A DNA stretch of 64,000 nt from Apostichopus japonicus (Eukaryota > Echinodermata > Holothuroidea > Aspidochirotida > Stichopodidae), in assembly GCF_037975245.1 (NCBI RefSeq), contig NC_092565.1:7556999-7620998 (forward strand), in the 5' to 3' direction. Made by a program: the position numbers and the translations under genes. Position 1 is the stretch's first letter, and the number at the start of each line of letters is the position of its first letter. The notes below the pieces were generated by a model. It saw only the letters and a list, made by a program, of their open reading frames with translations. It searched no databases and was not told the DNA's origin. Below, in pieces: positions 17,593-63,000 of this stretch.

Positions 17593-17593
<1 letters not shown>

Positions 17594-18831: not shown

Positions 18832-18839
18832 TCTGGTCA

Positions 18840-19000: not shown

Positions 19001-19149
19001 TCATAATCATTGACGAAAAATATGATTGTATGAGACTGACTTCGGTCAGATTGCGGCTTTGATAAGCCAATGATGGCTTCTTCGCGAGTTCCTGGTCACT
19101 TCGCGAGTTCGATGGTCACTGATGTTTGAAAATAAACTTTGAAACAGAC

Positions 19150-21493: not shown

Positions 21494-21784
21494 AAAAATA
21501 AAAAATACTCACTGTACCGAAAATCTCCAGATTAAATGTGTCTTAAAAATAATTACCCGACAGAGCTCAAAACTGAACAAATTAGCTTCTTATAGCAGAA
21601 TCATCATGGTATTTTTTCCCCCTTTTCCTTTCCATGAAAGATTGAAAAGTTACTAATTATTTTGACAAAGTCACATCTCCATTCCAGCACATCCAACCTG
21701 AATGTAAGTTATTGAAATAATAAGATTTATTTTCAGTTTTTTTAAATTGAAAGCTCCGTTTTCTACCCCCAGGTGTAGGAGGCA

Positions 21785-23033: not shown

Positions 23034-23039
23034 TTTATT
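23034..23039 (-). promoter_or_regulatory. Candidate poly(A) signal of the SLC36-like gene
   Basis: TTTATT on the + strand reads AATAAA on the minus strand, about 430 bases beyond the stop codon of the SLC36-like gene. It is preserved in the second copy. Other AT-rich hexamers nearby could serve instead. Confidence 0.35.
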
Positions 23040-23467
23040 GTTAGGAGAAGATGTGCTATTTTAATTATTTTCCATTCAAGTCCAACATGATAGCGGCTCA
23101 TTTATATAAATGTTTTGAATGATTTGTTAATAACTAACCATAACCTTACAGTTTAGCTAATGAAATGAGATGCATACATCTGACTTTCATCATCTGCATA
23201 TACAGTGCAGCATATGTTACTCATGACACAACATACATTAAAAAACGTAATGTTACACATGACGTACATAATAATACGCAACATACGATACAGCACATGA
23301 AACAACTGCAATGTGACATTTAACTTTTGTCCAAGATGTCTGGCGGAGTTAACGATCTTTGATAATCTTTGGTAACTGTGACCGTCAGGCTCAAATATAC
23401 CCTGCTGCCCGGAAATGAACCAGTAGTTTACATCGTAAAGAATTTGACAAAAGAGAAACAACTATAT

Positions 23468-32227: not shown

Positions 32228-32864
32228 CTATAAAAGAAAGAGAAGAGATATCATCCGATTATTTATCTTGCAAAGTATGAAATGTTAACCATGCAATATG
32301 TTACAAAAAGTCATTTCAATTAACATGTACAGTTATGAGATGTCAGTCCATCGTTTGTTTGAAAAACAAATCTCCTGGTACCTAGCAGTTTCATCCGAGT
32401 GTTCTCACATGTTATGGCATAATATACATATATTACAGTAGATGCCTTGGCAAACTCTTAATAATACAGCTAACACAGTAAGTTAACTTTTTGTCATACT
32501 TTCACAACATTAATTCATGTTACAACTCTTTCAAGGAGTTCCCTTCAAATACCTATTTGCCAACCAGTATTGTTGTTTGGAAAAAATATTGATATTGCCA
32601 TGTTATCTTCATATTTGAAATGTTTGGGCGAGGGTTTCTTGAAACATCAAAATCAGCCGATATTGAGATCCGAGTTATTGGATATCGCTAAAAGCATAAC
32701 ATCTGTGCAACACTAATTGACTCAATGACTTGGTGATATCACTTCTTATTGCCTGCCATTTTGTATCCAAACGGTCAGGGGGTGTTAACATGTTCCACAT
32801 CCTGGGAATAAATTGTTACCACCAGCATCCCACTGATAGAAAGATACTAGGTAACCGATCTTAC

Positions 32865-32894
32865 CGAGTACTCCAAATAGTAAGACCAGTATCC
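32865..32894 (-). CDS. Possible 30-bp exon, unresolved
   Basis: On the minus strand CTCTACAG precedes 30 bases that end at a donor, CTCG|GTAAGA. Joined to the candidate exon at 35,020-34,954 it keeps an open, very hydrophobic frame (ILVLLFGVL). Joining it to the SLC36 exon at 32,227 would put that exon out of frame, so it is either alternative or unrelated. Weak. Confidence 0.2.
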
Positions 32895-34953
32895 CTGTAG
32901 AGACGTGACACGTAGAGATGTGATAGATTAAAATTTATTACACAAATATCCAGTTACATTTTATCTAACTTTTATTTTGTTCTCAAAAGAAAAAATGAAA
33001 CCCAAAAGTGGAGAAAACCGTCATTCCTCACACCTTGAGAAATATATATAATAAAAAATGTTAGGACAGAACCAACAGGCTGTAGATTTACGTTCATTGT
33101 TACATTCTTTATTTATGTTAGCCCAGGTAGGTTCATATCCGTTTCAACACTATATTTCAATTCTTTGGCAGAAATCCCTGAGTATATGTATTATATACAT
33201 ATTGTGCACCATTGCTCTACAAATTAATGACTTATCAGTGTGATATGTACCACCACCATTTAAAAAATATATATAATTTTGATAGTCATGATATAATGAC
33301 CACTGTACTGGTTATTTAATATCTTATGGACATTATACTATTTATACACACAAAAAAAAGTGTACAGATATTTGTAAAATGTATACATGTTAATCATTAC
33401 TGATCAATTATTATTCCATTGGTTTTTACTAGTTAATAATTGCACAGAAGAGAAAGGATAACATGATATTGGGTTGTTACATCCATACAGCAAGAGAAGC
33501 ATGTACTACAATACTATAATGGAGTTACATACGGTACAAGAAAATACTGCTTGAGGTCAGAATAAACATACCTGCAAACAAATACTCAGAGAGTAGAGTA
33601 GTCATAGATACTACCTACTCAGGGAATAACCAAGTGTTCAAATTTTGTGCAGCACATTTGAAAGCTTTGAACTTTGTCTCATAAAACTACTACAATCTCT
33701 GTGTACAAATACTGCCATACATCTCTGCACTTGTTTAGTAAATTTGTCCATTTTGTGCATAGCATTTTTTGATGCAATACTGGATGAATTATGCACTGCT
33801 ACTGTACCTCCTGTCAGTTGTAGCATGCACGGTTTGGGTTTCAGAGTCTAACGACCAAGGGTAGCTTAATTCAGTTCAGAATTTTGAAAGCACAAAAGAA
33901 ATTATTTGTTAGAATACATATGTAACAGTTACCTCAAGAATGCAAGTCCTGTGCTCTACCAACAGAACTATCTTAGAGATGACCATTTTCTTTCTATGAA
34001 TCAAGTAACTAAATGCAGTCATACTGTGAGCCTTGTATTATATACTGGATATTTGTATGGCTGGAGAATTAAAGGGTGTGAAGACTCGCGCAAAAAGGAA
34101 CGTCTAATGCAGGTAAATTGACCTAGTTTCGAATGAGGTGTAACAGAAGTGTTAAACACCACCATCCATCCCAGAAAATACACACACAGCTTGCTACCGT
34201 CGGTAATTAAACACTAGTGTACAGTCAGTACATACAGCTGTGGTCAATACCCACAGCACAGTATACAAACGATACAGCGATGGACATCTCAGGTCCAGCT
34301 AAAGATAACAATTAAGGTATCACGATTCATTACTGTCTGCATTTTTTAGCGACACGAACGAAACGTCACTTGCAAGCAACAGAAAGTTAACTTTTTCAGA
34401 TGGCCACACTCGGTTTGGGGCGAGTCTTCAATGCCTTTAACTACACCATTCAGAAACCAAAAAAACTATTTCCAGATTGTCCAAAATTACTCTCTGTAAT
34501 ATTAGCCTGTGGTCAATATAACTATTAGTTAGTATCCAACTGTACTTTATGTAGTGCAGAGGTGTTAAAGAGCTTCCTGTTTAAACATGAAGGCAGTAGC
34601 AAGGTAGACAACTAGTTTGCATACATAATGAAAACTGCTTTCTAGTTAAAACCAGTTTATGGCCACTTTAGCCCAAACTGTGCAGCTTTCATCAGGTCGT
34701 CAGGTTTTTTCATCAGGCATATTATTAGCATCTTACCTTCTGGCTTAGTATAGTAGCAGTATGGGCTTAATATTAAGAATTTATCACATCATTGGGGGTT
34801 ATAGTGAGACATGAGACATGGGAAGACATGCATGTAAGAGTTGTACACTGTTTGAAGGTCTGTGCACTTCTGTCTGTATTCAACATGCTTTCATGTAGAA
34901 CTTTATATAAGCCTACAAAAGTACAGGTCACATTGCAAGTTAAAAAATATTAC

Positions 34954-35020
34954 CGAACACTATAATAGTGTTGACTGAAATACCATACGCCTTTAAGCTA
35001 AATTTGTCGTGGAACTTCAT
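34954..35020 (-). CDS. Possible first coding exon on minus strand
   Basis: ATG followed by 22 open codons (MKFHDKFSLKAYG, then ISVNTIIVF) and a donor, TTCG|GTAATA. It lies about 240 bases from a divergent plus-strand candidate first exon at 35,263, consistent with a two-way promoter. It might start the SLC36-like transcript or a separate membrane protein, but its phase does not join the known SLC36 exon at 32,227 directly. Confidence 0.25.
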
Positions 35021-35262
35021 TGTCGTAAGATTGAGCGTTGCTTCAGTTCTTCCCACCGCTGGCGCCTAAAAGTCTGAAATTGTATTCCACCAATAAAGTG
35101 AAGAGCTGATGTGTGCATCTCCACCAGTAGCAGGTGGGTACAGCCAATGACAATCTAGCCCTTCCTCGTTTTAAATCCTTGTCCAATCAGCACCACGAAT
35201 CTGTAGATATTTTCTCCATTGTGAGCGGTAGCATAATTTTGTTAGTTAGTTTTGAGCTCATC

Positions 35263-35321
35263 ATGAGGAGACCAAGATTTGCCTCTGACAAGACAAGAAC
35301 TGAGGGAATCGCCTATTTTCT
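35263..35321 (+). CDS. Possible first coding exon on plus strand
   Basis: ATG opens a frame MRRPRFASDKTRTEGIAYF, followed by a good donor, CT|GTAAGT, after 59 bases. The charged N-terminus looks like real coding sequence, but I do not recognise it and found no second exon. Sequence between 35,321 and 42,920 offers no obvious partner. Confidence 0.25.
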
Positions 35322-35934
35322 GTAAGTTGCTTTAAACTGGTATATTTGTTTCATCACACGAATGCTTGGCATGACTTGTAGGTTTAATTGTTTGTTTTAA
35401 GAAAGGGTAAAATTGAGTATCTTTGGGGTTGCGGAGGATACTGCTCGTACAAATAAAATACGCTACGAAAAGTTTCGTTACTCCTCGTGTATTTTAGTAA
35501 CAAGAAGCGCGGGTGTATTGTTAAGTAATAACATTTGTTGAATCTTCTTTAGGTCGCATTTTAAGGTAGACGAACATCATAGATATTTCTTGTAATGTTT
35601 TCGTAGTCAAGCAAATAACGAGAGGGGGTTAGTGTTAATCTGTGATAACATTATCCTTCATTTGCACATGTATACATTTTATCTACAAGTTACTTTATCA
35701 TTTCTTTTTACTTTCTTCTAATGAAAATGTGATCTCCGTGAAAGTCAGTCATTGCCATAATCTGGATCAATTTCACCTGTACCCAGCAAGAATCAGTGAT
35801 TGAGGTCATTAATATATTAGAGATTCCATAAGTCATCCTCTTCTCCCATTATTGTCAATATGTGTTGAAGATTATTACTACGTTCAACAGACTGTAACTT
35901 GGGAGAAACTGGTCGATTTTACAATACAATGGCA

Positions 35935-36125
35935 CAGCGACGTAGCCAGGAATTTGAAAGGGAGGGGGAGCACTTTTTGCGATTGATATGGATTTTCAAA
36001 GTTGTAGGCACGACTATCTGAGCGGAGCGCCACCATCGGTTGGCGCGGAGCGTACAAGAAAATTAAAATTTTTTTACAAACCCCCCAGATGGCCGGAAAC
36101 GGCCCTTCCCTAGTGTTCATTCTGG
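35935..36125 (-). mobile_element. Truncated MITE remnant, reversed
   Basis: Carries GCGGAGCGCCACC and GGCGCGGAGCGTAC, the reverse complement of the core of the elements at 19,150 and 21,135, beside a CAGCGACGTAGCCAGG end. Partial copy with no complete inverted ends. Confidence 0.5.
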
Positions 36126-37065
36126 TTCCCTGGCCTCTTGCTAACTTGAGACACCTCATTCAATATCACTTTCAAACCCCAAAAAACAAACGAGTTGAAA
36201 TAGTACGTAATTCAATAATAGGCCATCAGCTGAAACTCAAAAAGAGGCTGTAAAATCAGTTTCGTTCCAGCAACACCGGGTCTAGATTTTTAAAGCATTT
36301 TTGGGTAGTTCAATGCATCACAGACATTATATTAAAAGTTCTCCAAAAAATTTCCTGCAGTATTTTCGTAACGCACCCTCGAAATTGGGTATGTTATATA
36401 GACATTACGTGCTACGATGCTATGTATTAGGAACACACTAACGTTAGATTTGGTACAGTGGTGCATACATACCACTCTTTTCTTATATGTTTAATTACGA
36501 CATTTTTTTGTTGTTATAATAGTTGGGTAAGGGTTATAAGAATGGTGGAAGAGGATTCTGGTCTAAGGGTCAGTGAGGGTTGTTTTCAGGCATTACAAGT
36601 TGTGCCCTCCCCCCTCCATTTTCGCCAAAATGGTAAAAAAAGCACATTCTCAACTTTGACATATGAAATACAATTTTTACACATTATAACTTAAGGGTTT
36701 TAATTATAAAAATGTACCACTTTTAATAAACTCAGATATAATGCTTCGTAATAAATCAAATATTTTTAGATTTCCCCCCTATGTTATGATGCATTTCGTC
36801 TGTGCATGAAAGCGTAAATATACACATATAATGAAAAGTTCCTCTCCATAATTGTTACACTCCCCATCCAAACTGTTTTACACATGCGACCCCCTCCCCC
36901 TCTACTTTACATGTAGCTAAATCCCTAGTTACAATGAGATGTACCAATGCCCCAAGACCAGTGAGCTTATTTCTTTTGTATAAATCAATATATAAGTTGG
37001 CACACTAAGACGTCATGGCATATCGTAGATGTGAAATAAAGTTATAGTCGGTATATATCCATTAC

Positions 37066-37113
37066 CTTAGTACTCTTTCTACAGTCTTCGGCAAAACTAG
37101 GTGCTTTCTCCAT
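37066..37113 (-). CDS. Possible 16-codon first exon on minus strand
   Basis: ATG, 16 open codons (MEKAPSFAEDCRKSTK), then AAG|GTAATG. A short charged N-terminal exon would suit a cytosolic SLC36 N-terminus, but its phase 0 end does not fit the exon at 32,227 without another exon between. Very tentative. Confidence 0.15.
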
Positions 37114-38087
37114 GTTACTGAAACGACATGTTTATAATTCGTATTCATGCAAAAAGAGTTTCCAAGGGAGTTAACGTATAAAAGAAAAGATCGACAAGGT
37201 TTCGAATGGTATTTTGAATAATAATAGTTCTATATTCTACAAATAATATGAATAATAAAGGTAAATGGTACAAATAAGTGAATAACGAAGACAGTTAACT
37301 TAAGCCCCAGATAGAAAGAAATAATGTATCTATTAAGACTGGGTCGATGCACTCAATGGTGTAGTAGAGCTGGGCCTTTGCGATGATTCAAGATACAGGT
37401 TCTTCATCAAAAGGCGCGGCGCGGAATTAATAAGTAATTAAAAGTTCATCCAAGGACAGTTGTACTAGTTATAACAGGATCCACTTCAATTCACTGCATG
37501 GAAGTCAGATATGGTATGGAAAAGGGAAAGTCTATTCCGTAGTAGAGGTGAAGATAATTAGATGAAATAAAAGTCACTAAAGACTTGAATATCCTTCAGT
37601 CAAAACTTGAACAGATGCACAGAACGTATTAACAATATGAATAAAACAGGTAACGAAATGTTACGGCAAAACAATAAAGAACCGTGATATTGGAACAGGG
37701 TCAGGGGCAATAGTTCCCCAACAACAGTATATAAACCTCTGACTGGTTTCAGGATGCGGTATTTGCATCATCGTCATCAGTAAATGTAGTTATGAATATG
37801 CAAGAGGTAAAGCATGCCCATAACACCCTCCTCCCCCCTCCCCTCTCAGCAAAAAAAAGTGTGATTTGAAGAAAATGTGGATATTTATCATAAGGTGTCT
37901 GGTAGGTAGGGTAATCTACGTAAAACTACTAATAGCTAAAATGAATATATGAATAAGATCATGTTTTCTGGTTCCTTTAAACTCTGGGGAACAAAATAAT
38001 GACAACATGACTTTGAAAAAGTTAACCCTCTTCACAAACTTCAAACTTGATTAAAATTTCAGACTAAGATATCAAGATTTAACACCA

Positions 38088-40059
38088 TCACAGTTCATCC
38101 TCCAAATCATCTTCCCCTGCATCAACAATCTCAACATCTTCTTGGAAGTTCCTGCAATTTCTATATTTACATAGGTCTGTACACGGTAGTTGTGCATTCA
38201 TTCAGGAACATCTTCCTTTAAGACATTTGCCGACTCTACAGCTACTGCTGACACACTGAAGCAAAACATCTGGGTCAGGTGGCTTCGTCATCCAAGTGAT
38301 TATAAGGTCATCATTTCAAGTTTCCATCCATGTCCCTCTGGTGAGAGTGCATCAATCCTTTGCTGCAATGCCCTACTGTGAATAGCAGCCTGGTTGGTGC
38401 AGCGCTTAACATGCTGGATCAGAGCATCTTTTGTTGGTGGTAAACTCTGCTCTGAGGAGGAGATGAACAAAACACCTTGCACCATGAAATTGGATATTTT
38501 TGAGTCTCACATTTTATGATGGGGTACCAATATAATTACAATTAAGCTAGAAATAAGTTGCAAATTACTTTAATAATTTCAATGGAAAGATTAACCTGAT
38601 ATTGCATCTCAAAGCGTTTAGAGAATTTTTTAATTTTCCTTGAGGGAGGACCCCCATATTCCAAAAGTCCTAGATCCACCCCTGAACACTCAATGAACCA
38701 CACTTTGAAGAGAGTACTTTACCTTTCAAGATCTGTATGTCTTCCTTGTCAAGAATTGTATCTAGTTTCTTCAACATAGAGAGTGGTACCTCACTTCAAT
38801 GGCAACAATCTTTTCCTCTAATATTCATAAAATCTGGGCTCATCTTTTTTCCGCTCTGCTGCTTGTCGAAGCAATACTTTAATAAAATGAAATAAAAAAA
38901 ACCAAATTGTTTTGCATTTTCTGTTGATCAAAATGTAAGTTTGAACAAATAAGAACTAAGACAATTTTATTTATATACCATTTGATCTGCTCATCTTCTA
39001 TGGACAAACAAAGACACATTCAAATTTTGAAAACCAGTGTCATGCAAAAAAAGAATTAAAACAAGCTTTTTTTGACAGTACAGTACATTATCTCTTAATG
39101 TTATGGTTTAAATTATACAATGGTAGATTATATCTGTTACTAATAATAAAGGAGACAGATACTTGTTCATTTTGGTAAAGCTAGACAGGCTGACCATAAG
39201 ACCTTGCAAACCTAACCTTATTGCACCTTTGTTACACTTATTTTTCTAACTAATATAATATCTCTATCATTCAAATAAAGGGCCACAGTAAGAAAACTAT
39301 GAAGCCTGTATTTAACACTTAGGCTAGTGCCCCAGATGGAGAATTTGAAACAAATTTCCGTTCCTACCACCTTATAACAAAACAAATCAGATGACCATGC
39401 CACTAATTATATTATGTTCAGGTCCAACACTGTGCCCTTTGACTTGGATTCTATCCCTCAAGAGCTACTGATCTTGCATTATGCAACTTCTCTTAACACT
39501 TCAACTATGCCATAGAAGTGAAAGTACTGTAGAGTCGTGTAGTATGCTTAGGCTTACCTCCATCGAAAGTCTCTGCCTGCTGCAGCTTGTCCTGCACCCG
39601 TTTGCAACGCCGAGTAATGTATTGTTTCTTTTCCCACATATAATAAATTGAACAGGCAATACACCAGAGCTTCTGCTTGGTTTCCTCGATCTTTTCCGTT
39701 AATTCTTCGTTTAAAATCATATGGGGTCTACTCTGGTACTGTCCGTTTTCTTGCAGCAATGTGCTTGCTATCAACGAACCGCCTGTAACACTTATCGTGG
39801 AACCCCATCATACTATGCTGTTGAACACACGCTTGATCGTAGTAGGCCATGGAGTAATCAGTAGTACGGCGATATCACTGTCTCCGCCGCTGAGATTAAG
39901 CCAATCTTTAGCGCAGCAAGTAACTTTAGTCCATCGTTTATTCGTCAGTGCCTTGACTGCTTCAAATTTTACAGATTCAATGTGCACTGTAGCTAGTAAA
40001 TATTTATCGCAAACGCTGTTTTGGACCTTGGCAAGCCGATCAACAACAACAGGCAACAA
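38088..40059 (-). pseudogene. Decayed multi-domain gene of an uncharacterised repetitive family
   Basis: Ordered minus-strand fragments in changing frames. Residues TNKRWTKVTCCAKDWL (40,059-39,811) come first, then after a frameshift GFHDKCYRRFVDSKHIA. A helical EELTEKIEETKQKLW stretch follows, ending at donor 39,558. Next is an exon about 38,873-38,723 with KKDEPRFYEY and EEKIVAIEVRYH. Last is LPPTKDALIQHVKR (38,485-38,300), a frameshift, then PDPDVLLQC, CLKGRC, an in-frame TGA at 38,202-38,204 and LPCTDLCKY before the stop at 38,088. The HDKCYRRF, IEVRYHSLC, LPPT..AL..HVKR and Cys-rich C-terminus recall a multi-copy family of unannotated invertebrate proteins that I believe spreads as repeats. 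That is memory, not a search. Several frameshifts and stops argue for a dead copy. Confidence 0.5.
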
Positions 40060-40125
40060 AGTGCTGCAGCTCTATACATATAAAGTCTGTAAATCAACGA
40101 TAGGCTTATTTGACTGTGGAATGTT

Positions 40126-40229
40126 CTCAACTGAAATTTTATCGGCGTTAACGGGTTCTTAGGTAGATGTTAAAAAACTGACAAGATCGTATCCTAGTCT
40201 TTTTCGGCGGGTAGAGTATTGAATGAAAC
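40126..40229. repeat. Direct repeat A (pair with 40,776)
   Basis: About 105 bases starting CTCAACTGAAAT and ending TTGAATGAAAC recur at 40,776-40,881. They share TGTTAAAAAACTGACAAGAT and TAGTCTTTTTCG. Each copy is followed, at different distances, by ACTGGCTACGCCC(C)TGAT. This may be a small dispersed element or the ends of a degraded insertion. Confidence 0.6.
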
Positions 40230-40775
40230 GGCACGCGATATGAATGACAGCCTAGATGACAGAAGAATAGGTCACCTAATTTAGCCATAATCTTGCTACG
40301 TTCATTTCAATAGTTTTTCCTGTCTAGACTCTTAAACTCGTCCAGCAAGCTTATGGATTTGAATTATGGGTGTTTTAATAAAAAAAATAACTTGGCCAAA
40401 AAAAGTGTAGGCCCGGGCCTACAGTGCTACATACTGGCTACGCCCCTGATAGTTCTATATTAGGATTAGATCTCTTACTGAAATATGGCTGACCTAATAA
40501 GGTGACAAAGAGTACAAGTTTTATGTAGAAAAAGGGCACATTTTTAACCTGAGGAAAAGTGGGGGCACTTGCCCCCTGTGCCCCCCGGTTCCGCCGCTCT
40601 TGAAGGTACATGTACAGAGTAGTCTTACTTTTCAACTTCTGATACTTGTAGATACAAAGATAGTCCAGATATGTCTTTGCTACAACTGTAGCTATTAAAT
40701 GTTTAAGTAAGCCTAATAAGAGAAGGCGAGAGCTATCCGACGATTGCCATCTGATGCAAATTTCTCAAGCGTTTC

Positions 40776-40881
40776 CTCAACTGAAATATAACCTGCGTAA
40801 ACGGGTACTTAACTACATGTTAAAAAACTGACAAGATCGGATCCTATAGTCTTTTTCGCCGTGTAGAGTGTTGAATGAAAC
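40776..40881. repeat. Direct repeat B (pair with 40,126)
   Basis: Second copy of the roughly 105-base block, about 650 bases downstream and same orientation, diverged by roughly 15 percent by eye. A transposon-end-like GGCTACGCCCTGAT follows at about 40,899. Confidence 0.6.
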
Positions 40882-42814
40882 TATCGTGCTATATACTGGC
40901 TACGCCCTGATCATATGATATCAGTAGGCCTACCAGCAGATTTTGTTTCCTGTTTAAATTCTTTTAGGCCTACATGTTCTTTTACATAATATATCAGAAA
41001 GACAAACATAGTGCTCTTTTACAAGTTTTCCTGTAGGATGATTCTTGTTTATTGTCCAATGTCTGGACTTTAATACATTTGACGAACTTAACTGATGGAC
41101 AATATAAACTTTCATATTTTGTAATACAGCCAGATATGCAGTGGCCTAAAAACAAATATCGTTATCGCAGTGTATTAGCAGTGTAATAATTATTTATAGG
41201 AAGTGCGTATCACGTACGATTGCTAGCTTAGCTTCATAACATGCTGTTCGTGCAACAACTTAGGACGACTCATTGAACGAACGTTGTCGACGTTGTTGTG
41301 CATACAGTTCGTGACATTCCATAGAGTGCGATTAGGTAGGCAATATGTATTTTATTACGCAGTGGCCAACTGTAGGCTTGTAATTGGCTATAAGCTAAAT
41401 TTAGCTAATTGCATCTGCCAAACTAAGTAAGTAGTTGAATCAGTAGTCGTGAATGTTACTACGATTACAATCGAGTTAACGGAGCTGACGATTATTCAAT
41501 ATCAAAAGAGCACTGACAAAATACCATGCTAAAAAACGACAGTTTAAAAAAAAAAATCGACACTGAAAGGGGGGGCGGTCGCTCCCCGTGCTCCCCCCTA
41601 GCTACGTCCCTGCAATGGCATGCATAGCAAACAAAACAAAATACAGAAAGTAAGATTTACTAACCCTACAGAGGGGGCCTTTGGGTCTAACTACTTAACA
41701 TATTGACTTCGCAATGAGTTTAGCCTAGGCTAGGCTAGTGTAATGGGCCTTGGCTAAAGTTACTGTTGGCTATATGGGAGCTAACTTACTGGCCTAGGCT
41801 AGGCCTACTTTGTCCTGACTTACTGTGTATCCTAAATTTAAACTAAATGGAAGCAATGCGATTAAACATTGTAAGATTGATATCCAGTTGATTGAAATCT
41901 ATTATCCTTACCTCATCTTGTTTTCAAAGACGTTCCACTCGTTGAAAATTGTTAGGCAGTAGATTTGAAGAAGTTAATCATTGAGAATCAGGCTGGGATC
42001 GTCAATCTCGTCCCGTGACGTGTATGTCACTGTACTGTAAAATAGATTTTGCCAGGCGCAAGTAGCGTTAATCCTACACAATACAGTGACTAAAACCCAG
42101 GAAGGGAGTGTTCCGAGTTCAAGTTATACCGGATCAATAGTATGGAAGCGTAGAGGAGGCATAACATTAACAACTTTTAGTTCTTACTTAATATAGTTAA
42201 TATATATGACAGGAACTTTGCCGCGTTGAAAAGGGTTCAAATTGAAATTAATGCATAGTGCACTGTATAATAGCAAATAGATTATGAACATGAATTAAAG
42301 CATAAAATTTAACTTAAATAGCTGAACTAACAACGTGCATATAGCTTTTACAATGACAAGGTGACAAGTAAATAACTTTCCGCTCCTTCGGCGAATAGCA
42401 AACTGCACAAACGAAAATCTTTGTTTTCAAACGATGGAAAATAAATTTGCAATTTACTAACTAGTAATGGTTTGAGTTACTTTGTTACTTCTTTAATCGA
42501 ACAGTTTTGGTTTTCTTCCCAAGTTATCCGATGCTCACAAGATAACAACTCTTGTGTTTGGTACTCTCTATATACATATGACAAACTTGGGACACTCCCT
42601 CCTCCGCTTTTTTTGAGTTAACGTTACAGAAAAACAAAAACAAGCAGACAAAATGCACAAGAAAAAAACAAAAAAGCTAATGTTCCGTGACACGAAAATT
42701 GGTTCAGAACAGTAATTTTCAGAAAACACAGAGCAAACATTTTCTTATACAAGCAAGTTTTATTTTCTGTCTTCAATAATTTGAATGACATATTTTATGT
42801 TACATAAAAATCAT
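40882..42814. other. Non-coding stretch before the duplication junction
   Basis: No coding or RNA feature is supported. A short G/C-rich remnant near 41,568-41,612 (ending CTAGCTACGTCCCTG) resembles a hAT-type MITE end. The rest is AT-rich, unremarkable sequence. Confidence 0.4.
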
Positions 42815-42920
42815 TACATTTTCATCATTGTACAGCTATTCCTGTTTAATACGGGACCGTTTTGCAATGTGAGTGTCCAGTTTAGGCTTCCGTACTGAAA
42901 TGTGTGACCACTTGCGGGAT
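42815..42920 (-). CDS. Possible terminal exon cut by the junction
   Basis: Minus-strand frame running from the junction to a stop at 42,815 (SGHTFQYGSLNWTLTLQNG, then VLNRNSCTMMKM), followed about 60 bases later by AATAAA on the minus strand near 42,760. This would be the 3' end of an unknown gene truncated by the duplication boundary. The part of the frame beyond 42,920 is only VMAT exon read backwards. Unrecognised and tentative. Confidence 0.25.
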
Positions 42921-49539
<6,619 letters not shown>

Positions 49540-49810
49540 AGCTGAAACAGCACTAGCCCTTTCAGACGAACAATAACATCTTGCACGCTAAGAAACTTTC
49601 ATTTCAGAACGAAAGCTTGTAGTATACACATTACAGGCATTACACTAGTATAGTAACTATAGATTAGTCTTGACAATTCAGGCGTTTTGTAAATGTGCAG
49701 TAACCCCATCCTAATATTTTGAGATATCTCTTATTAATTCATATTTTTATCTTCTGCACATATTGACACTAAAGATATCTTTCAATGTTTAAAGTTGTCT
49801 TTTAATTTAG

Positions 49811-49822
49811 AATAAAAATAAA
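49811..49822 (+). promoter_or_regulatory. Poly(A) signals of the second VMAT copy
   Basis: Same doubled AATAAA motif as at 16,556, about 270 bases after the stop. Confidence 0.5.
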
Positions 49823-50777
49823 GTGGCTTGTCATGTCATGGAAAGGTATTTAGGCGCCAAACCCTCATCGTGTGGTGGAAGAGAAGGGATTTTCGAGCGG
49901 ACTCGGGGAGCTTCGCGTGCATGCTCATGCACAAAACTACACGTATATATGGGCTGACAAACAGTGACATGTTTACTCATTTTGTTAGACATCGATAATT
50001 GTTCGACTTATATTATTACATAAATTATCAATTTGAAGATGTTCATATCTTCATAATGTTTACATAAACAGATATGAAAGGTGGATGTCGATTTAAGTGA
50101 TGAAAACAGTTATATTGAGTAATATTGTTTTGTAGATCTTTAGGCGAGTAACATGAGTTACTTCATTACACTGGTTCTAAATGAATATGTAATTAAGTAA
50201 TTCAGCTTTAATTAAGCCTTCTCTTGTGTTTCGAGGTACAAAGTTGCTAATAGCTCTGCAAAATACATCTAGTTTCAACATCATACAACGATTTCGTTTA
50301 ATCACAAATCGTTTTTATCAAATTTAACAAGGACGTCAAAATTCCTTTAGCGCTTGGTCAGCTGATTACTTAATACTTGATGTCCTTATTACAACCACTA
50401 TTCCCAGACGTGCACAATGTCGTGACACATTGCCAAATGTACTTACAGAGCTGTATGGACTGACAACTTTATACTGTGCTTCTTCCTTTACCTAAGATTG
50501 ACTCAATTACAGCCCACGAGGAGTTGACGTCCAATGCATGGTTCAAATCCATTTTTTGGAAGGTTAATAAAAAATAAAGAGAAGGTGTAAATACAAAAAG
50601 GTTCAATACACTTCAAAGCTTACGAATCATAACTTGATTGTATCAATCGACAAACAGATGAATATGATGTTGATGTTGGCGAATGATTTTTATTTTTGAA
50701 TGTTACAAGAGGGTGATTTGTAAGTTATGAAGTAAGGAATGTTAGTAAAACAGACACACAGACACATACACACACAA

Positions 50778-50827
50778 ATATATATATATATAGGCCTTTA
50801 TATATATATATATATATATATATAGGC

Positions 50828-50898
<71 letters not shown>

Positions 50899-50899
50899 C

Positions 50900-50949
<50 letters not shown>
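50778..50949. repeat. (TA)n interrupted by AGGCCT blocks
   Basis: A TA tract about 170 bases long, broken three times by AGGCCTTTA (near 50,793, 50,825 and 50,897). The first copy is a pure 53-base tract, so this one grew and gained a higher-order pattern. Confidence 0.9.
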
Positions 50950-50951
<2 letters not shown>

Positions 50952-51956
50952 TTCACATATTTAATAATATCATATGTTATGTAGATGTTTGTAGTATAAA
51001 GTGCATAGCACAGCCATGATGATTGTAAGTTACAGCACGCTATCTCCCAAATAAAAACAAAGTCGTCTTTGCAAATATGTTGTACGTTCGGTTTTTTTTT
51101 TTTTTCATGAAACTTAAATATCAACTCTTAACACTTCTGTGGAGGTGCAGATCAGAAAAGGAACGAACGCGGCTGATGTGTTGGGGGAAGGTGAGTGGGG
51201 GAGGGGTGGGGTGGGGAGCTTTATGAGCAATTACACCTGTCACTAACTAATTTGGCTCACATTCCTTTTCATCGTCAAATGTGTAAGTCTCATAACACAA
51301 AGAAAACGTTAAACATAAACCTTTTTCTTTACGATAGAATTTCTCGTATCGACGCTCACCGACGAAGTCACTCTATAACGGCTCCAATCGACATCCTCAT
51401 TTAAATAACAAAGGTTTATCTGGTTTACTGCAGGAATTTTAAGGAGTATATTTGTGTCAACAGCAGTGCTTTATAGATCAGGTATTTCTGGCATCTTCAA
51501 GGTCCATTGAAGACTTATCGTCAGTTTGTGATCATTGTAGGGCCTACAACACGTTGAACGCAGTGAATGTTATGATACCATAAAGAAGTGTCCAGTGTTG
51601 CTCCAATATAAATAGTCAAGTAATAGCATATAACTTTATTCAGGACATGTGACTATAGTTTGATGTGGAGGCAAGCCACAAAGTTTAAATTCAATTTTTC
51701 TGACAAAACAGATTCTCTGTACATTCCCTGACGAAAAGTCCAGTAAATTATACTGTTTTTTTTTCAACCAAATGGGCCTTTTTTCCTTTCCCGCCCCCCC
51801 CCCCAATTATTCAACAACAACTTTTAAACCCCATTGTTAATACATTTTCTCAACAAATGGGCACTGCTCAATTAAAAGAGGGTACTTTTTAATAACAAAA
51901 TCTGTACTGCTTTGGTGCTGGAAACAATAAAATGAAGACGAAATATTTTTACTCAC

Positions 51957-52200
51957 CAGTTCATCTAGCACAGCAATGATAAAACTCCGGTCCGCTGCGT
52001 CGGTACGTTGCGAATAAAGGTAATAGAAAATACAGGATCCATCCATAGTACGATTAAAAGTATCTTGAGATCCTTCACAAAATAAGAAAAGTTTAGATCG
52101 TCCGAAATAAAGTGTGGGCGGTTCCAATACGAAGCCTTCCAAAAATATAAACCGATAGCGGTCGGTTTTAAAGCTTATGTGAAAGTAGTTCAAGCTTGTT
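51957..52200 (-). CDS. Possible orphan exon, second copy
   Basis: Counterpart of the exon-like frame at 18,588-18,831 with the same CTG|GTGAGT donor. Three replacements (D to G, I to T and G to A) and no frame-breaking change within the exon. Product unknown. Confidence 0.25.
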
Positions 52201-52467
52201 TCTGGTCAAAGTTCAATTAGAATCATAGGGTTCAAACCTGGTATCCCACATCCAGAAAAGCCTGCCTGAGATGTGATATAGTCCAATCGGTGCCTTCCAA
52301 TTATAAAGTCCCCGGTTCGAGTCACTCCAAGATTATTGTATTTCGTCCAGTTGCATACATACATACATATATACATATAGTCGAATGAAGGTCATGTGAG
52401 ATCATAAGAACCATGAGATCAGATTGTCGATGGTCACTGATGTTTGAAAATAAACTTTGAAACAGAC

Positions 52468-52847
52468 CAGTGGCGGAGCGTCCATAGAGTCAGGATGCCC
52501 CCCCCCCCCCCCCCGACGGACTCAAATGGACTGCTGGCGCCCTTTTCAGCTATTTGCCACTTTTTACTTGTTCGCGATTATTGACTTTTTTATTGCGCTC
52601 TAATCTACCTATTGACATTTGTCACATGATTTTGTTGGCGATGACACCTATTTATTCTTCGTTTATCTGCAAATTAGCAAGGCCCGGAAAGGGTCATTTC
52701 CGGCGATCTAGGGAGTATCTTTACTCAAAAAATTCATGTACGCTCCGCGCCAATTAACCTGTGGTGGCGCTCCGCTTAGATAAAGTCGAAAGCGCCCATA
52801 CAGACCATTCTCGCCCCCTCTGACCAATACCCCTAGCTCCGCCACTG
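52468..52847. mobile_element. MITE-like element, second-unit copy
   Basis: Counterpart of the element at 19,150-19,533, with CAGTGGCGGAGC and GCTCCGCCACTG ends. It carries small indels in the poly-C tract and an inserted TTAA near 52,755. It was inherited with the duplication rather than inserted separately. Confidence 0.65.
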
Positions 52848-54441
52848 GCTCCCAATCATTCTTCCCCGTCAATCCGTCTAGTATCCCCCCCTCCTCCCTC
52901 CCCAACCGAACCTCGTTTGTTAAAGGAATATCTAATGATTATAGACACTTATTCTAATGTTAAATCAGCAAAGAGCAAGCAATAATGATTTTATCACTAA
53001 GATTTTTTTTTCATTTCTTAGTTACACCATCATTTAACTTCCCACTCAATCCTACACTCCCTGATACCCTTCCATCCCAATGTAGGAAACTTCATCGTTA
53101 CACGCAGCACGCAGCACGCAACGATCTTTGTTCTACTTAATTGATCCTTACTGAGTCTCTCAACTTAAAAGCATATTTTTTTCCACATAGATTAGTGAAA
53201 GTTACACAGTTTTAAGTAATAAATTAGAAGCATCTCTTTGTTGAAGCATTGTATTATCGGCCTAGTCTTCGATAAGCGTAACTTAGGGTTGAAAGAAATC
53301 AGTGAGAGCTAGCCGGCAGTAATGATATTAACTTACATATATATATTTTCAAATCTCATTTAGGACGAATTATTAGGTCCCCCTGGTAACATAATTCACC
53401 CCCTCCCCTATTCTCCCCTACCTTTCTTAAACTCTCACCGCTTCTCTTACAGCTAATATATGAGATATCCTCGTAAAGCGTGATGATCTAGGTCCCTCAT
53501 TTATCTAATGCATGGGAGGAACTCGAAACTTTCTTCCTTATCCGCATATTCCAAGCTTTCTCCAAGAAAAGAGTTACAGTACCTATTACCCAGATGCTAT
53601 GTTAATAATTAAAAATAGCCTCCCTCCTCATAAAACGTGATGATCTATGTCCCTCATTAATCTAAAGCATGGATGAACTCTCAACTTAAAGCATATTCCA
53701 AAGTTTTTTCCACAAAAGAGCCACAGAACCTACCACACACAAATTATGTAAATGTCACTGGACGGCATCCGTAGTGACATCGTTTTTTGGTCCACATTTG
53801 AGTTTCCATCATATCTTTAATCTGCTTTTCATACATATCTTTTATTGTGATTGTTAAAATGACCACATCTAAGGACTTTTGAGTCGTTTTTCTGTATCTA
53901 GTGGAATTGTCTCGCTGAGATATAAAAGGATGAATTTTCCGTACGTTTTCGCGGTAGGCCCCTCTGTTCAAGGTCAATGCACGACTATAACATTAGGTCC
54001 ACTAAGTGCGGATATTGGTCTCCATTTGCTACTATTACAGTAAACCCAACCGAGCAACGTATCTACGGTGTCTCTTAAAAGACATCATTATTAACAAAGT
54101 CGAAAAGAATTTTTAGTCTCTTTGGTGTCATTTGAAAAGTATTTCTGATTACATTACGTATAGATTTGCCCTCTCTCCTTTTCTATGAGAAAGGTACATA
54201 TGGGAAACATAACAATGACCGTGATAAAATCAATTTCAAGATTACTAGCGATCAAATCGCTCAATTTGTTTCAAAAAATGGTTGAAAAGTGACATGAATT
54301 CCTCCTCATTCATTCATTTTACTTGAGCATGTTGAACGCTTGCGATAACATGTCATTACGAATCATTGCAGACGCTCACCCAAACCGTTAAAATATACCG
54401 CCACTCCCCCTCCCCCTTCTCTTCCTACACTGCGCTCCCAA

Positions 54442-54793
54442 CAGTGGCGGAGCGTCCATACAGTCAGGGGGCGGATGCCCCCCCCCCCCCCCCGACGGAC
54501 TCAAATGGACTACTGGCACCCTTTCCAGCTATTTACCACTTTTTAGCGATTATTGACTTTCTTTATTGTGCTCTCATCTACCTATTGACATTTTTCACAT
54601 TTTGTTGGCTAATGACACCTATTTATTCTTCGTTTATCTGCAAATTAGCAAGGCCCGGTGAGGGTCATTTCCGTCGATCTAGGGAGTATCTTTACTCATA
54701 AAATGTCTGTACGTTCCGCGCCAACCTGTGGTGGCGCTCCGCTTAGATAAAGTCGGAAGCGCCCACACAGACCATTCTCGCCCCATCTGACCA
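54442..54793. mobile_element. Truncated MITE, second-unit copy
   Basis: Counterpart of 21,135-21,493, again lacking the right inverted end. Confidence 0.6.
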
Positions 54794-55061
54794 AAAATAA
54801 AAAATACTCACTGTACCGAAAATCTCCAGATTTAATGTATCTTTAAAATAATGACTCGATAGTTCTCAAAACTGAACAAATTAGCTTCTTAGGAGAATCA
54901 TCATGGTATTTTTTCCCCTTTTCCTTTCCATGAAAGATTGAAAAGTTACTAAGTATTTTGACAAAGTCAAATCTCCATTCCAGCACATCGAACCTGAATG
55001 TAATTGAAATAATAAGATTTATTTTGATTTTTTTAATTTCTAACCCCAGGTGTAGGAGGCA

Positions 55062-55439
55062 TTGCAGGTAAAGGTCATATCAATTCACCTCACTGCCACA
55101 TTTTCATTTTACCTTACAACCACCGTCAAATCATATGATCAGTTTAGGCAGACCCTATCAGTACATCTTGATGCCACAGACAAATCTTCTCAGCTGGCTA
55201 ATATATTCCGGCTTCCTCGGGATGTGATCATCGATATCAAGAAGCACCAAACACCGAGAATGCTTTTGTTATAGAAGTTGACCGAACATTCACTGATATC
55301 TTTCCACAAACATCACAAAATTTGGAAAATGCCCTGACAGAGCAAGGAAGTTCAGAATGTGTGAGAGATTTAGAAGAAATAATCCAGTATTTTGAGAAAC
55401 AATATGTCCTGAATAGATTTGTACTGAAAATCTTCTAAG
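55062..55439 (+). pseudogene. Death-domain-like fragment, second copy
   Basis: Same pattern as 21,785-22,133 (LANIFRLPRDVIIDIKK preserved), but the frame stops right after RMLLL and the downstream helix region has further changes and a small deletion. Both copies are broken, so the damage began before, or is shared by, the two units. Confidence 0.35.
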
Positions 55440-55831
55440 TTTGTATTTAGGAAAGCTTTGTATATATGCCAGCATCCTATTATTGTAAATGCACCTATTG
55501 AAGAATGCCCTGTGTGCATTCTCCCTTTTTCTACACAAAGACTAAAAGAAAACCACATTTTAAGGAATGTGACCTCTTGTATATTTATTCTCACCATATA
55601 TTTATATTTTACAACTTCATAAAGTAAAACAACGTAAATGTGTAACGTATTAATATTTACAGCTTTGCACCCGTTTTTGTATTTAGCCATGTTATAACCT
55701 ACAACGCAAGATATGAAGTACACTCTTAATAAGCTGCAATATTTCTGTGAAATATCAGAAAAAAAGTGACATTAATTGGAACTATATGGAAAAGAATGTA
55801 TGTTAAAAGTCTTCAGTATTCCCCTTAAAAT

Positions 55832-56388
55832 ATGCTTGAAAGTCAAGATATAATCACTCTTGCTCTTCAACAATTATTTGCCACCCTCCAACAATATTCC
55901 TTGTACAGTCATTACAATTTGTCAAATCTAACAAATTCATCCTCTTTATGGATAAACGGTTGAGAGGATAGTACTTGTAAAATTTATTTTGACATTTTCA
56001 TTCACAGGAAAACTTTTATGACATTGTTTTTACTTAAATTTTGAAAAGCTTGAAGCTAAACATTTTTGTTGCCAATACTATGGCATTCTTTAAGCTAAAA
56101 TGTTGACATTATGCTTGAAAGTCAAGATATAATCAATCTTGCTCTTCAACAATTATTTGCCACCCTCTAACAATATTCATTGTTCAGTCATTACATTTTG
56201 TCAAATCTAACAAATTCATCCTCTTTATGGATAAAACGTTGAGAGGAAAGTACTTGTAAAATTATTTTGAAATTTTCATTCACAGGTTAACTTTTTTGAC
56301 ATTGTTTTTACTAAAATTTTGAAATGCTTGAAGCTAAACATTTTTGTTGCCAATACTATGGCATTCTTTAAGCTAAAATGTTGACATT
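55832..56388. repeat. 279-bp local tandem duplication, second unit only
   Basis: A block starting ATGCTTGAAAGTCAAGATAT occurs at 55,832 and again at 56,111. The first unit has it once (about 22,563-22,840). The two blocks differ at several positions, so the event is not brand new. A 23-base TTCTTTAAGCTAAAATGTTG tandem follows at 56,362-56,425. Confidence 0.85.
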
Positions 56389-57033
56389 CTTTAAGCTAAA
56401 ATGTTGACATTCTTTAAGCTAAAATTTGGTACCGATATGACAACCTGAAAGCCTGGGATAGAATTTCAATAAAAAATATAGAAGTAAGATGCAAAAGTCT
56501 CCTTGCACTATACTACCAGTAAAACCAGAAAAAGGAAAAAAAGATGAAAAATACCATTATTATAAAAGTGATAAAAAATATTATTCGTACAATTTCAGTT
56601 TTATTGTTAGGAGAAGATGTGCTATTTTTTATTATTTTCCATTCAAGTCCAACATGATAGCCGCTCATCTATATAAATTTTTGGATGATTTGTAAATAAC
56701 TAACCATAACCTGACAGTTTAGCTAATGAAATGAGATGCATACATCTGACTATCATCATTTGCATATACAGTGCAGCATATGTTACTCATGACACAACAT
56801 ACATTAAAAAACGTAATGTTACTCATGACGTACATAATAATACGCAACATACGATACAGCACATGAAACAACTGCAATGTGACGTTCAACTTTTGTCCAA
56901 GATGTCTGGCGGAGTAAACGATCTTTGATAATCTTTGGTAACTGTGACCGTCAGGCTCAAATATACCCTGCTGCCCGGAAATGAACCAGTAGTTTACATC
57001 GTAAAGAATTTGACAAAAGAGAAACAACTATAT

Positions 57034-60000
57034 TCAATTTGGGCCTTGTAGATTTTCAATAATTTGCCTTACAGAGAAATAAACTCCTGTCACCATGCCA
57101 ACCAGACCGATCGAAATGAGCAGAACGTCTTTCATGATGACTAATGTAGATCGACCTCCGAGACGAATGTGGATAAGGCACGGGATAACGTAGGCCAGCA
57201 TAGTACTTCCCACTGCACCTGTAGCAAACGAGAAAGGTGAGGAAGTTAAAAACTATTGTTGGGAGGTTTCCTAAATGAGAAAATCACACTAATTACTTCT
57301 TTTATACAGATCGTGTTGATTTCAGTGAAAATGAAACAGAAAGCACATAAAATAAAGGGGACCTCATTTCCTACTGCTATTAAATATGCTTTCACAGAAA
57401 CCTGTTACTTTAAATGTCAGAATAGCTATCACAAAACAAGATAACTATTTTTAAAGGTTAATTCCTTCTACCTTGCTTTTCAGCTAATTTGTTTATCAAA
57501 CACAATGAGAGTCCTTTTGACTTTATTGCTCATCATGCACAATACATCATCTGTACAGTAAGATCCAACATTTGAACTATTCTTGAGGGTGTAACAAACT
57601 GACTTGTTTTAAACAAAAGGTTGCTGGAGATCTGAGCATGTCTGTACGAGAAATAAAGTTTTGAACCATTCCTCCTTTGGTCACTAAATAACCTAATTTG
57701 ACTTTTGGCCTCCTACACTCAAGTCTGGGATTTGGAAGTAATGGTACTAAAGATCTAACAGACGATGGGGCTTTATTTTCTTTGGATCCAGCCGTACAGC
57801 TCTAACCGATCGCTTAACACATTCCTAATTCTCAGTGCTTGAACTAGTTAACTACCTTTGCTTCGTAATATCACAACCCTAATTGTATCAAACTTTCACC
57901 AAATGATTTCAAGAATATGAGAAAATACTCACCAACTAAAGCACTAAAATATGCATAGCTATCCTTCAAGAAATAGGCTAAACCAAACTGTATTACTACT
58001 ATCATTACACGGACCAAGCCCCGTTTGTAGAAAGGAACCTGATAGAGAAATGAAAAAGAAAATTCATGAATCTAGATTGGGAATGGAAGGAGGATGGAAC
58101 TAATGAGGACCACTAAACTACAAATTTAACTTGTGATATGCATCAAACAATAGAATGCTATTGTTCGCATCAAACAATAGGATGCTATTGTTCGTAGCCA
58201 CTATGGTGTAACAAAAGTTCATAGTTGATGTAATAAAGTGATGCGTTTATTGCTTTCAGAACACTTCTTTGCTTAACGGCTGATGGAGGACAATGCAAAA
58301 TAAATGGAACGTAACTGAACCCACCATTATTTGTAATTCAACAAATCATTGCTTTACCAAGACACCAATGATGGAAACGGACATGTTTAACTTCACCTAG
58401 AAACATATTTAACGAAACTTTGAAAGCATGAGACTATCCATTTTCTGTGTTATAGACCTGACAATCTAGTTTGAAAGCGACTGTTTCAAGCAAAGAGAAG
58501 TATTGCTTATTGTGCATTGAATGCCTCTTTTTCAACTTATCGCATAACGTATTAGACTGCATAAAGCTCTGTTAAAATTATGAATAATACTTAAAATATT
58601 CTTAATCTGCAAAAACAATAAAAGAAAAATTTGAAGGGGGAAGGGGGTTCATCTATTCTTTAAAAATATTGGAGTATGTAATTTTAAAGTTTCACATCAT
58701 GAAAACATAAAAAAGGAGGTTAGAACATCTCTGCAATTTTCTTAAGTATACAGCACTTTACACTAGATGTCAAAGTGTAAGCTAGTGTTTTGCCTGTTGC
58801 CAGTGCAATTTTGCGTATGGGATCTAGATATTCATCCCTCCAAACTCCCCGACGTCGAGGGTAATTAACGGTCAATTAAATTGACGGGAGGATCATTCAC
58901 AAAGTGGCTCGCAAATGCAGTCTCAGATTTAAGCATCCAAAAAAATATCTAGTGGTGCACAAATACTAACAGACACTTTTAAAGAAAAAAAATTTAGTCC
59001 TGTCTTTTATTACCATACTGTACCTCTCCCCCCATGCCCCCTGCCCCCCCCCCATGGATGTCCTCACCAGACTCTCCCTTTACCACTCGGTTCTTTACAC
59101 ACTGTACACAAAGATATCAAATCCTAATATTACAACGCATACAGTTCATTTTTCATGGCTGCAGTTTTTGGCTTTCTGTTCTGCTCTCTGGCCCATATAG
59201 ATTAGTCTTTCTTTTCGAATGGAATTGTTCTGCACAAACACTGACCTTTTCAGTTGGTTGTCTGGTGTCGACCTCTTCACTCTGTATGGATTCGTTCGGT
59301 ATACCACTTGATAGCAAGGGTTCCCTCGATTCTAAGTTGGGTATGCTTGGGTCAGCTTGTTCATCCTCATGAATTGCTGTTGGATGGACATTGAGGTAAA
59401 CGAGAAGGATAAGTCTTCTAAAGTTCTGGACGGATAGACATTTGGTTGAACAAATGTTCACTTATATATATAAACATACTATATACTGTGAAAGTATGTT
59501 CATTTACACTTGTATATTAAGTAACTATTAGTTCTATAAAAAAAAAATGTTAAAAAAATCCCTGAAGAATTGAAAGTGTTAAGTTTAAATGATTTTTTGG
59601 GCTTAAAAAAATGAAATGATTTCCAGAAGGCAAATGTCAGCCTATGTTAGATTCTGTTTATATAGTTGCCAACGATTTACAGGAATACCAAACTTGAAAA
59701 GATAATGTAAACAGCTGAGGTTCATCAATTAATGTGACTGGACAAGTAAGTCTAACACACAGATCATTATTCAGCTACTCACATTTAGCAACAAAACTTA
59801 AATAACATGTTTCCATTCCAGAGATATGTTCAATCTGAATATCTTGAAAACTGGTATAGCTATAGAAGCACTAATAGCACTTCAACTTTTGTTGTTGAAA
59901 TATCAAGACATAAATTCTGCTTCAAGTGATCATAGATCAGACTCCAGAGTGTGAAAGTGCTTTTGCTGTAAAGTTTATTATGAGGAGCAAATATTTGTTA

Positions 60001-63000
60001 ATAACTACCATCAATTTTCGAGGCAATTCTAACACATACCGAGGCTAAACACTGAATTTCAGCCCTACCTATTCCAGCCATCTGAAAACACAGAAACGTT
60101 CAGAAACTTACAACTGCCAAAGATGAGACCCTCCACAATTTCCACTGCCACAAAGTTTTGAAGTGGATATGTGAACAGCACTCCTATGCAGATGGTTGCA
60201 TTAATTATTAAGATCACGATGGGATTGGTGTGGCCGGCTAGACTCCATATGAGGACCTGTCCGACGTTATTTCCGTACTTCAGGTACCCTATAACACCCA
60301 TGAAACAATAGATACCAGTAAACAATAAAAGGGCACCGTACAGCAGGACAGGGTAAAGACTTCGATTCCCCTCCATGCTGGTCTCAATGGGGATAATCTG
60401 TAAGAAAAGCAAATATAACATAAATACAGCTTAAATACCAGAAGATGCAGTCGGCTCTTCAACAAACCATAACACTTTGTATTTGTTTTATTTGTGTTGT
60501 ATTTATTTTATTTGTGTTGCATTTGTATTGTATTTGTGTTGCATTTGTGTTGTATTTGTGTTTTATTTGTGTTGTATTTGTTTTGTGTTGCATTTGTATT
60601 GTATTTGTGTTGTATTTGTTTCATTTGTGTTGTATTTATTTTATTTGTGTTGCATTTGTATTGTATTTGTGTTGTATTTGGTTGTTGCATGTACCACAAA
60701 AGAGGAGCACAACAAATGCTTGGAGTTTTATCTTTACAATGATTTCATGGTTTCTTTTTAAAAGTTACATCCGTGGCGGGTTCTTTATTGATGTTGCGAT
60801 CGATAGTTTAGTTAGTTTGTGTTACATACTTCATTTTGTACAGTAAGCATGTTACAATATTACTAATGGATGCACTCAGTGTCATTTGAATTTTGTTCAG
60901 AAGGAGAAGTTCACAAGGAAAAGTAATGCTTGCACTTCAAACAAGAGTCAGGCAGCAGAATACAATGAGATGAACTGTGTACCAAGGAGTGTAGAGCTGT
61001 AAAGAAGTGGTACGCAACCTTTTGCCAGTGACTTTAGAAAGTTAACTTTGCATGTGAAATACGACTTCACTTGATCGACTGACAAATTTAAAACAAACAA
61101 AAAATAGTTTTGTTATTTTATATTAGTATTATAGTGTTTAAATTAGTGTTATATATTTTGTTTATAAACATGTGTTTCAATTACCATAGTATTTGGTTAT
61201 AAAGATTTCTTTCATGACAGTTCACAACATATTTTCAGAAGTTTTTGAGGATTTTCCTGGGAAGTTCTCTTGCCCCCCCCCCCCCTCCCCCACCCCCACC
61301 AACATATATTTCCATGATCCACGTTTTGGTCAAAGCTCAGGTTTATGGACCACTGGTGTAAAGCACTCATTACATCAAGTGACCTTACTAATTTCATTTG
61401 AAATTAAACCTAGGATTAAAATACCTGAAATATAAAAATTCACCGGACTAGAGCATATTTTAAAAATAGTTGCAAGTTTTTCCTCAGAGAACGAATTTTT
61501 GTTTTTTTGTGGAACTCCATGAAAACAAAATATTTAAAGACATTTTTGCAAGTGGCACTAAATTGATCTTAATCCAGTGAGCTGTTTACCACAAGGAGCT
61601 CTGTCCTACTGCAGTCCATAAAACAAAACAGTCACGTCTCCTTTACGCCATAAAGAACTTACGGTTCCTATTCCTTCATACGCCGATGTCACTTGGCCGA
61701 AAAATATGGGAAAGCCAGAGATGTTGGCAGTCCATGTGATTTCATTATTTATTTTAAAATCTGTAGAAGAGAAAGATGAGCAGACAATTAAAAGCAGTTC
61801 TTGTTCGCATTAAATTTAGCGGTAGCTTAAATAACCAGGGTAAGAAGGGTAATTCTGTACATGTCTAGAGGAATCTTAAATTCCTCCAAAGCAATCAGTA
61901 CTGACAATTATCAATTCAACTAAAGTGGATTCGGTACAGTAATGAAAGCCAATCTGGAAACAAAGATTAAAAAACTTTTTTTAGTATACATTCCTCAGAG
62001 TAATGACAACATTAATTGACTGACATGTAAATGGCTGCAACTATTTCCAGTGCTATCTGAATAATTTATGCAAATGGTTAATTGCAAAGACTGTTTGAGC
62101 ATGAATGCACAAACTCTCATGATATAAGAGAACGTTTGGGATAAATTTGTTCTGTCTAGACATGTTCAGCTTTCACCATATCTTCCGTTTTGACCACGTT
62201 CCACCTCAAACGTTCTTTTGACTCCATGAATTAATTACAACTTTTTCGACCCATCATCTGCTGTTTGGTCAAAATCAAACTTAAAACCCTAGGAGTAGAC
62301 TTTTTGTGAGTTTGGCTCTCTGACCTCTTTTGAACCCAAATGACTTTTGACCTTAAAGTTAGGTACAAGTATTAGTACACATTATCTGCCGATCAGTATG
62401 GTTAAGTTTGATCAAAATCAAACATATAGCCTGGGAGAAGTCAGATTTTACATTTTTTTGCTGTTTTGATCACTTTTGAGTTTTGACATCATATGACCTT
62501 GACCCTAAAATAAACCATCATCTAACTGACCACAATGACCAAGTTTGGTGAAAATCAAAACATAACTGTTCACAGTGAGTGCTTTCTCTTTTTACTCATT
62601 CATTCTGAAATGAGCATTATATATTAATAGTTACTGTGTCGTAGTGGTTAGCGCCCTGGAACTGATAGATTCACACAAACCCTTAAAATGAGTTCAAGCC
62701 CCTGCTAGAGACAGAATTTTAACTTTCTATGCTTTTCCTCCTTCCAATGGTGAGGTTGAAGTATAAGAGACATGCATTACTGTGGCGCAGTGCTCTCGAA
62801 CTGAGAGTCAGATAAACTCCTTGACATGAGTTCAAGTCCATGCCAGACACGGCATTTCAATTTTCTGCTCTTTTCCATTCTTCCATTCCGAGGTGAGGTT
62901 GAAATGTATTAGAAACGAGCATTATTTCTCAAAAGTTGCTGTGCGGCAGAGGTTAGTGCTCTGGAGCTGAGAGTGTCAGACGAACACCTTGTCATGAGTT

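Follow-up and report, generated by a model that had tools for sequence, protein, structure and literature searches.

Introduction

Direct tandem units of recent origin have been described in an echinoderm for the Sp185/333 (SpTransformer) genes of the purple sea urchin. These are immune genes in units of 4.2-4.6 kb bounded by GAT repeats; short tandem repeats flank the duplications, for which the authors proposed unequal crossing-over (PMC5103432). For the sea cucumber Apostichopus japonicus, another source counts 74 tandem clusters with more than five gene copies (PMC5638244). A third comparison is with assembly artefacts. False heterotype duplications are adjacent copies on one scaffold whose divergence is not far from the heterozygosity of the species (PMC9516828).

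The array described here, on contig C5 of Apostichopus japonicus, shares with Sp185/333 the echinoderm host, the direct tandem arrangement of the units, and their recent origin. It differs in the size of the units (about 33 kb), in its transporter genes, and in the absence of comparable flanking repeats at the seam in the window, which we call seam 1. It has only three units, fewer than the copies in the large clusters counted for this species. Its adjacent copies on one scaffold, with a divergence not far from heterozygosity, resemble the false heterotype duplications, but there is no gap between the copies, and a third unit and a second seam are present.

Materials and methods

The window is the whole stretch of DNA analyzed, 64,000 nucleotides in length (C5:7556999-7620998), and all coordinates follow its numbering unless a contig is named. 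It was compared with the surrounding 220 kb (C5:7530001-7750000). U1, U2, and U3 denote units 1, 2, and 3 of the array. Block identities were taken from gap-free columns of one MAFFT alignment. This alignment is not meaningful past U1 35,930, and that part was excluded from the change-point analysis. In the coding comparison of VMAT, exon 14 was limited to its first 104 nt. At the gathering score, no Rfam family was found in the window.

Structure of the array and its seams

When the window was compared with itself, six main direct matches appeared in collinear order, from 10,378/42,917 to 30,383/64,000, at 94.1-95.8% identity with gaps counted. These matches far exceed chance. The preliminary description had placed a restart of the sequence at 42,921, in the middle of VMAT exon 4 (equivalent to 10,381), with unit 1 repeated from there in order and in direct orientation up to the end of the window. 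The self-comparison and the flanks of the joint bear out the restart, and the collinear matches confirm the order. Insertions and deletions shift the offset between U1 and U2 from 32,540 at the joint to 33,611 close to the end of the window. Three direct units were found in the 220 kb, starting at 8,224 (U1), 42,921 (U2), and 73,199 (U3), with main matches of 91-98%. The far right end is weaker, with 84-86% between units 2 and 3. The units are adjacent, in the same orientation, longer than 1 kb, and of high identity, as in a tandem segmental duplication. The head-to-tail direct orientation proposed earlier is supported. The features are collected in Table 1.

Table 1. Positions of the array features in window coordinates
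Feature	Position	Strand	Details
Unit 1	8224..42920	+	Shared part starts at 8,224 for unit 3 and at 10,381 for unit 2
Unit 2, first part	42921..64000	+	Extends past the window to 73,198, where seam 2 joins unit 3
Seam 1	42920..42921		Joint between the unit-1 right end and mid-exon 4 of VMAT (= 10,381); shared base, one T (42,921)
Right end of unit 1	42613..42921	+	Recurs at U2 70,677-70,988 (94.9%), continuing past the seam point; last 122 bases recur in U3 (86%)
(AT)46.5 array	10158..10250	+	131 bases left of the exon-4 breakpoint
VMAT gene, complete, unit 1	6534..15403	+	14 coding exons, 558 aa, 13 introns, all GT-AG; MFS_1
VMAT, 5'-truncated, unit 2	42921..48666	+	Exons 5-14 preceded by the final 39 nt of exon 4; the frame open at the seam has no start codon
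SLC36-like amino-acid transporter gene, unit 1	23474..30519	-	Four exon segments recognized; Aa_trans in the large exon, E 1.4e-12
SLC36-like gene, unit 2	57040..64000	-	Large exon 63,456-64,136 extends beyond the window end
5.7-kb insert, unit 1 only	35934..41613		8-base overlap at the ends; part 39,986-41,563 recurs inverted inside a unit-3 insert
Best single change point in the three-unit relationship	25715..25799		Gain of 97.6 log units; 200 shuffles gave no more than 11.7

At seam 1, ...ACTTGCGGGATT is joined to GTTGCAAGG..., and the same joint can also be written as GCGGGATT followed by GTTGCAAGG. The left flank runs on as GCGGGATTTACAA at U2 70,988, and CTAGGAT precedes the right-flank sequence at U1 10,381 and U3 75,340. 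The two sides overlap by one T, or by an imperfect GGAT with a one-base shift. The earlier statement that no microhomology is present is thus correct to within one base, the exception being the T common to both sides. A 261-bp probe across seam 1 had five matches genome-wide, every one on C5. No transposon was seen at seam 1; a hAT-like element, described below, sits near seam 2. A chimeric coding exon at seam 1 was considered and rejected, as the upstream frame is open for five codons only and has no start. Seam 1 is not a working element, and the VMAT piece at its right is without exons 1-3, half of exon 4, and the start.

Seam 2 lies outside the window. Unit 3 starts there at the equivalent of U1 8,224, in VMAT intron 1, and seam 2 is therefore unlike seam 1. 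The 4,352 bases from U2 70,988 to the exon-4 point of U3 (75,340) are absent from seam 1. Of these, 260 bases are still common to unit 3. Also among them are a short-repeat piece (71,248-71,505) resembling 146,631-146,901 and a dispersed element (71,580-73,049, about 1.47 kb) whose 14-base inverted ends agree at 13 positions and which is flanked by an 8-base duplication. About 215 bases have no convincing match in the 220 kb, and the left end of unit 3 follows. We take the dispersed element to be hAT-like. Four of five copies examined (L032, L033, L034, and L036) share its end within a base and the fifth (L035) matches to 72,806; 40 of the 2,138 candidates in this genome search were scored, so that the copies represent a lower bound. 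The whole assembly comprises 671,581,487 bp in 35 contigs. Contig C35 (16,099 bp), the mitogenome, carries COX1 above the Pfam cut-off. Read with translation table 9, it has asparagine at conserved COI positions, which points to an echinoderm, and its open frames were assigned in the order COI, ND4L, COII, ATP6, COIII, ND3, ND4, ND5, ND6 (opposite strand), CYTB, ND1, and ND2, an arrangement known from sea urchins and sea cucumbers. Elsewhere in the assembly, five COX1-like pieces (L023-L027) lie on C29:14745-31219, outside the mitogenome contig, and are perhaps nuclear mitochondrial DNA or misplaced mitogenome.

Transporter gene copies

Among PDB entries, the unit-1 VMAT protein is closest to VMAT2 (E 2.2e-160), and its best VAChT match has an E of 3.1e-91. 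Unit 1 is the only unit with a complete MFS protein nearer to VMAT (SLC18A1/2) than to VAChT. Exon 1 is missing from the VMAT of units 2 and 3, and its region matched only itself among the 40 of 310 candidates scored genome-wide. Intron 1 contains a dispersed repeat (7167-7384) that occurs in at least 42 further places at 71-88% (40 of 310 candidates scored). Unit 3 retains exons 2-14 of VMAT.

In 885 nt of coding sequence, the VMAT copies of U1 and U2 differ at 0 of 673 nonsynonymous and 3 of 212 synonymous sites, and their introns differ at 74 of 4,033 positions. U1 and U3 have 3 synonymous and 5 nonsynonymous differences, with two of the five nonsynonymous codons stemming from the 7-bp insertion of unit 3, and 46 of 4,065 intron positions differ. 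If nonsynonymous sites had changed neutrally at the rate of the introns, the expectation for U1-U2 would be 12.3 such differences, with a probability of 4e-6 for none. On the assumption of equal branches, constraint on the unit-2 piece can have been absent for less than about half of its branch. It is without decay, whereas the unit-3 VMAT is decayed, with a W>C change and the 7-bp insertion near its end.

The SLC36-like gene lies on the opposite strand to VMAT in each unit, and its four segments keep an open frame in all three units. The Aa_trans match of the large exon is above the Pfam cut-off. The SLC36 subfamily label, which derives from a probe, is tentative. The first exon of the gene was not found; the stretch 32,788-32,934 on the minus strand was a guess for this exon and was not confirmed. 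The large exon has exactly three matches in the genome (three of three candidates scored), all within the array.

In the large exon (U1 29836-30519), U1 and U2 differ at 24.5 of 522 nonsynonymous and 8.5 of 159 synonymous sites, with open frames. The corresponding values are 29 of 518 and 11 of 160 for U1-U3, and 23.5 of 517 and 12.5 of 161 for U2-U3. The other three segments, summed, are more conserved, with 5 of 409 nonsynonymous and 3 of 133 synonymous sites for U1-U2, and 3 of 410 and 8 of 133 for U2-U3. When all four segments are considered, the nonsynonymous rate is about equal to the synonymous rate for U1-U2 only, and U2-U3 is constrained; the SLC36-like copies are therefore not simply neutral. 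The large exon differs more than its flanks between U1 and U2 (4.70 vs 2.65%, p 0.008), and there is no such excess for U1-U3 or U2-U3.

Two further features accompany these genes. An 11-base tandem array (TTGTATTTGTG, about 20 copies) lies beside an SLC36-like exon, at 26865-27073 and 60477-60685, with equal length in U1 and U2, and about 150 aligned bases around it are absent from unit 3. U1 and U2 both keep a minus-strand open frame of about 121 aa (18474-18836 and 51840-52205); the unit-1 copy has no Pfam match.

Histories of the units

The alignment up to U1 35,930 contains 1,171 informative sites, and the relationship among the three units changes near U1 25.7 kb. Left of this point, 136 sites group U1 with U2, 255 group U1 with U3, and 192 group U2 with U3, and the mismatches of these pairs are 3.00, 2.25, and 2.68%. 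Right of it, the counts are 366, 100, and 122, and the mismatches are 2.45, 5.35, and 5.25%. The two halves of the units therefore have different histories, which unequal exchange or gene conversion would give.

Discussion

We read seam 1 as a real feature of a three-unit head-to-tail tandem segmental duplication on one Apostichopus japonicus chromosome, and on the assembled sequence we put the probability of this reading at about 0.8. The assembly holds one complete VMAT, two 5'-truncated VMAT, three SLC36-like copies, and two different seams. Exchange between units and haplotypes, by unequal crossing-over or gene conversion, may have moved the VMAT half recently and would have left the SLC36-like half of unit 3 older. 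The right half of unit 3, at 5.25-5.35% from the other units, exceeds the reported heterozygosity of 1.59%.

Seam 1 itself could stem from the deletion of 4,352 bases followed by end joining, or from a separate recent breakpoint from a diverged haplotype, the two being about evenly balanced. Both are parts of the real-array reading and share its probability rather than adding to it. Under the deletion, the seams would once have been alike, and the 4,352 bases across the U1/U2 seam would have been lost and the ends joined. This may be what happened, at somewhat less than even odds. The VMAT ends of the two seams are 2,157 bases apart (10,381 and 8,224), their right unit ends are 260-520 bases apart when the 1.47-kb element is excluded, and the one shared base suits end joining. 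However, U2 and U3 are not sisters in the left half, as the site counts there indicate, and the unit-3 VMAT carries the decay that unit 2 is free of.

These same observations, namely the undecayed unit-2 VMAT and the kinship of U1 and U3 in the left half, are consistent with seam 1 being a second, recent duplication breakpoint, with the segment coming from a diverged haplotype with an intact VMAT. We regard this origin as possible and hold it tentatively. It needs two breaks that fell by chance near older ones at both ends, though the (AT)46.5 array, 131 bases off the exon-4 breakpoint, may have favored one of the two.

A false duplication, the other possibility raised in the preliminary description, appears improbable. 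U1 and U2 would then be two haplotypes of one locus joined end to end by the assembler, and real chromosomes would carry U1 or U2, seam 2, and U3. The seam falls mid-exon with one shared base and no repeat there, and the VMAT of U1 and U2 differ by no amino-acid change, as alleles would; this last point also counts against the real array. So does the U1-U2 divergence of 2.45-3.0%, which is not far over the heterozygosity estimated by gce k-mer analysis (1.59%), by a simulated fit (about 2%), and from SNP calls (0.73%, called an underestimate) (PMC5638244). The array has, however, a third unit and a second seam, U1 is nearer to U3 than to U2 in the left half, and the SLC36-like large exon, present in exactly three copies, has its 24.5 nonsynonymous differences between U1 and U2, which is not the pattern of alleles of a conserved gene. 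We also count against this reading that contigs lacking an overlap should not be joined by a read-overlap assembler.

False copies on the same scaffold are typically separated by gaps (PMC9516828), but there is no N at the seam or anywhere in the 220 kb. In the assembly report, 198 contigs of 671,627,515 bp became 34 scaffolds of 671,643,915 bp (PMC10344927). With 164 joins and 16,400 extra bases, each scaffold join appears to carry 100 N, a rule taken from these published totals rather than from N runs observed directly in the genome. The same report gives a mean HiFi read length of 14.7 kb (PMC10344927), so that reads would span seam 1, which counts against an artefact. A single head-to-tail duplication of 32,540 bases with one novel junction, as first proposed, is not supported, given the third unit and the two non-identical seams.

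The array might be a young, still shifting cluster that varies in unit number between individuals, its SLC36-like copies diversifying and its dead VMAT pieces travelling as passengers. We consider this unlikely, the more so because equal nonsynonymous and synonymous rates are approached by the SLC36-like genes of U1 and U2 only, and there is constraint for U2-U3. The array looks like a rather ordinary tandem duplication, with ordinary turnover in a polymorphic genome. It indicates that a window may show just one of several seams, and that the constraint on coding sequence, compared between copies, can set a limit on how long ago a copy was truncated. Since one truncated VMAT is without decay and the SLC36-like copies next to it are more diverged, the order of events at this locus is testable with phased reads.
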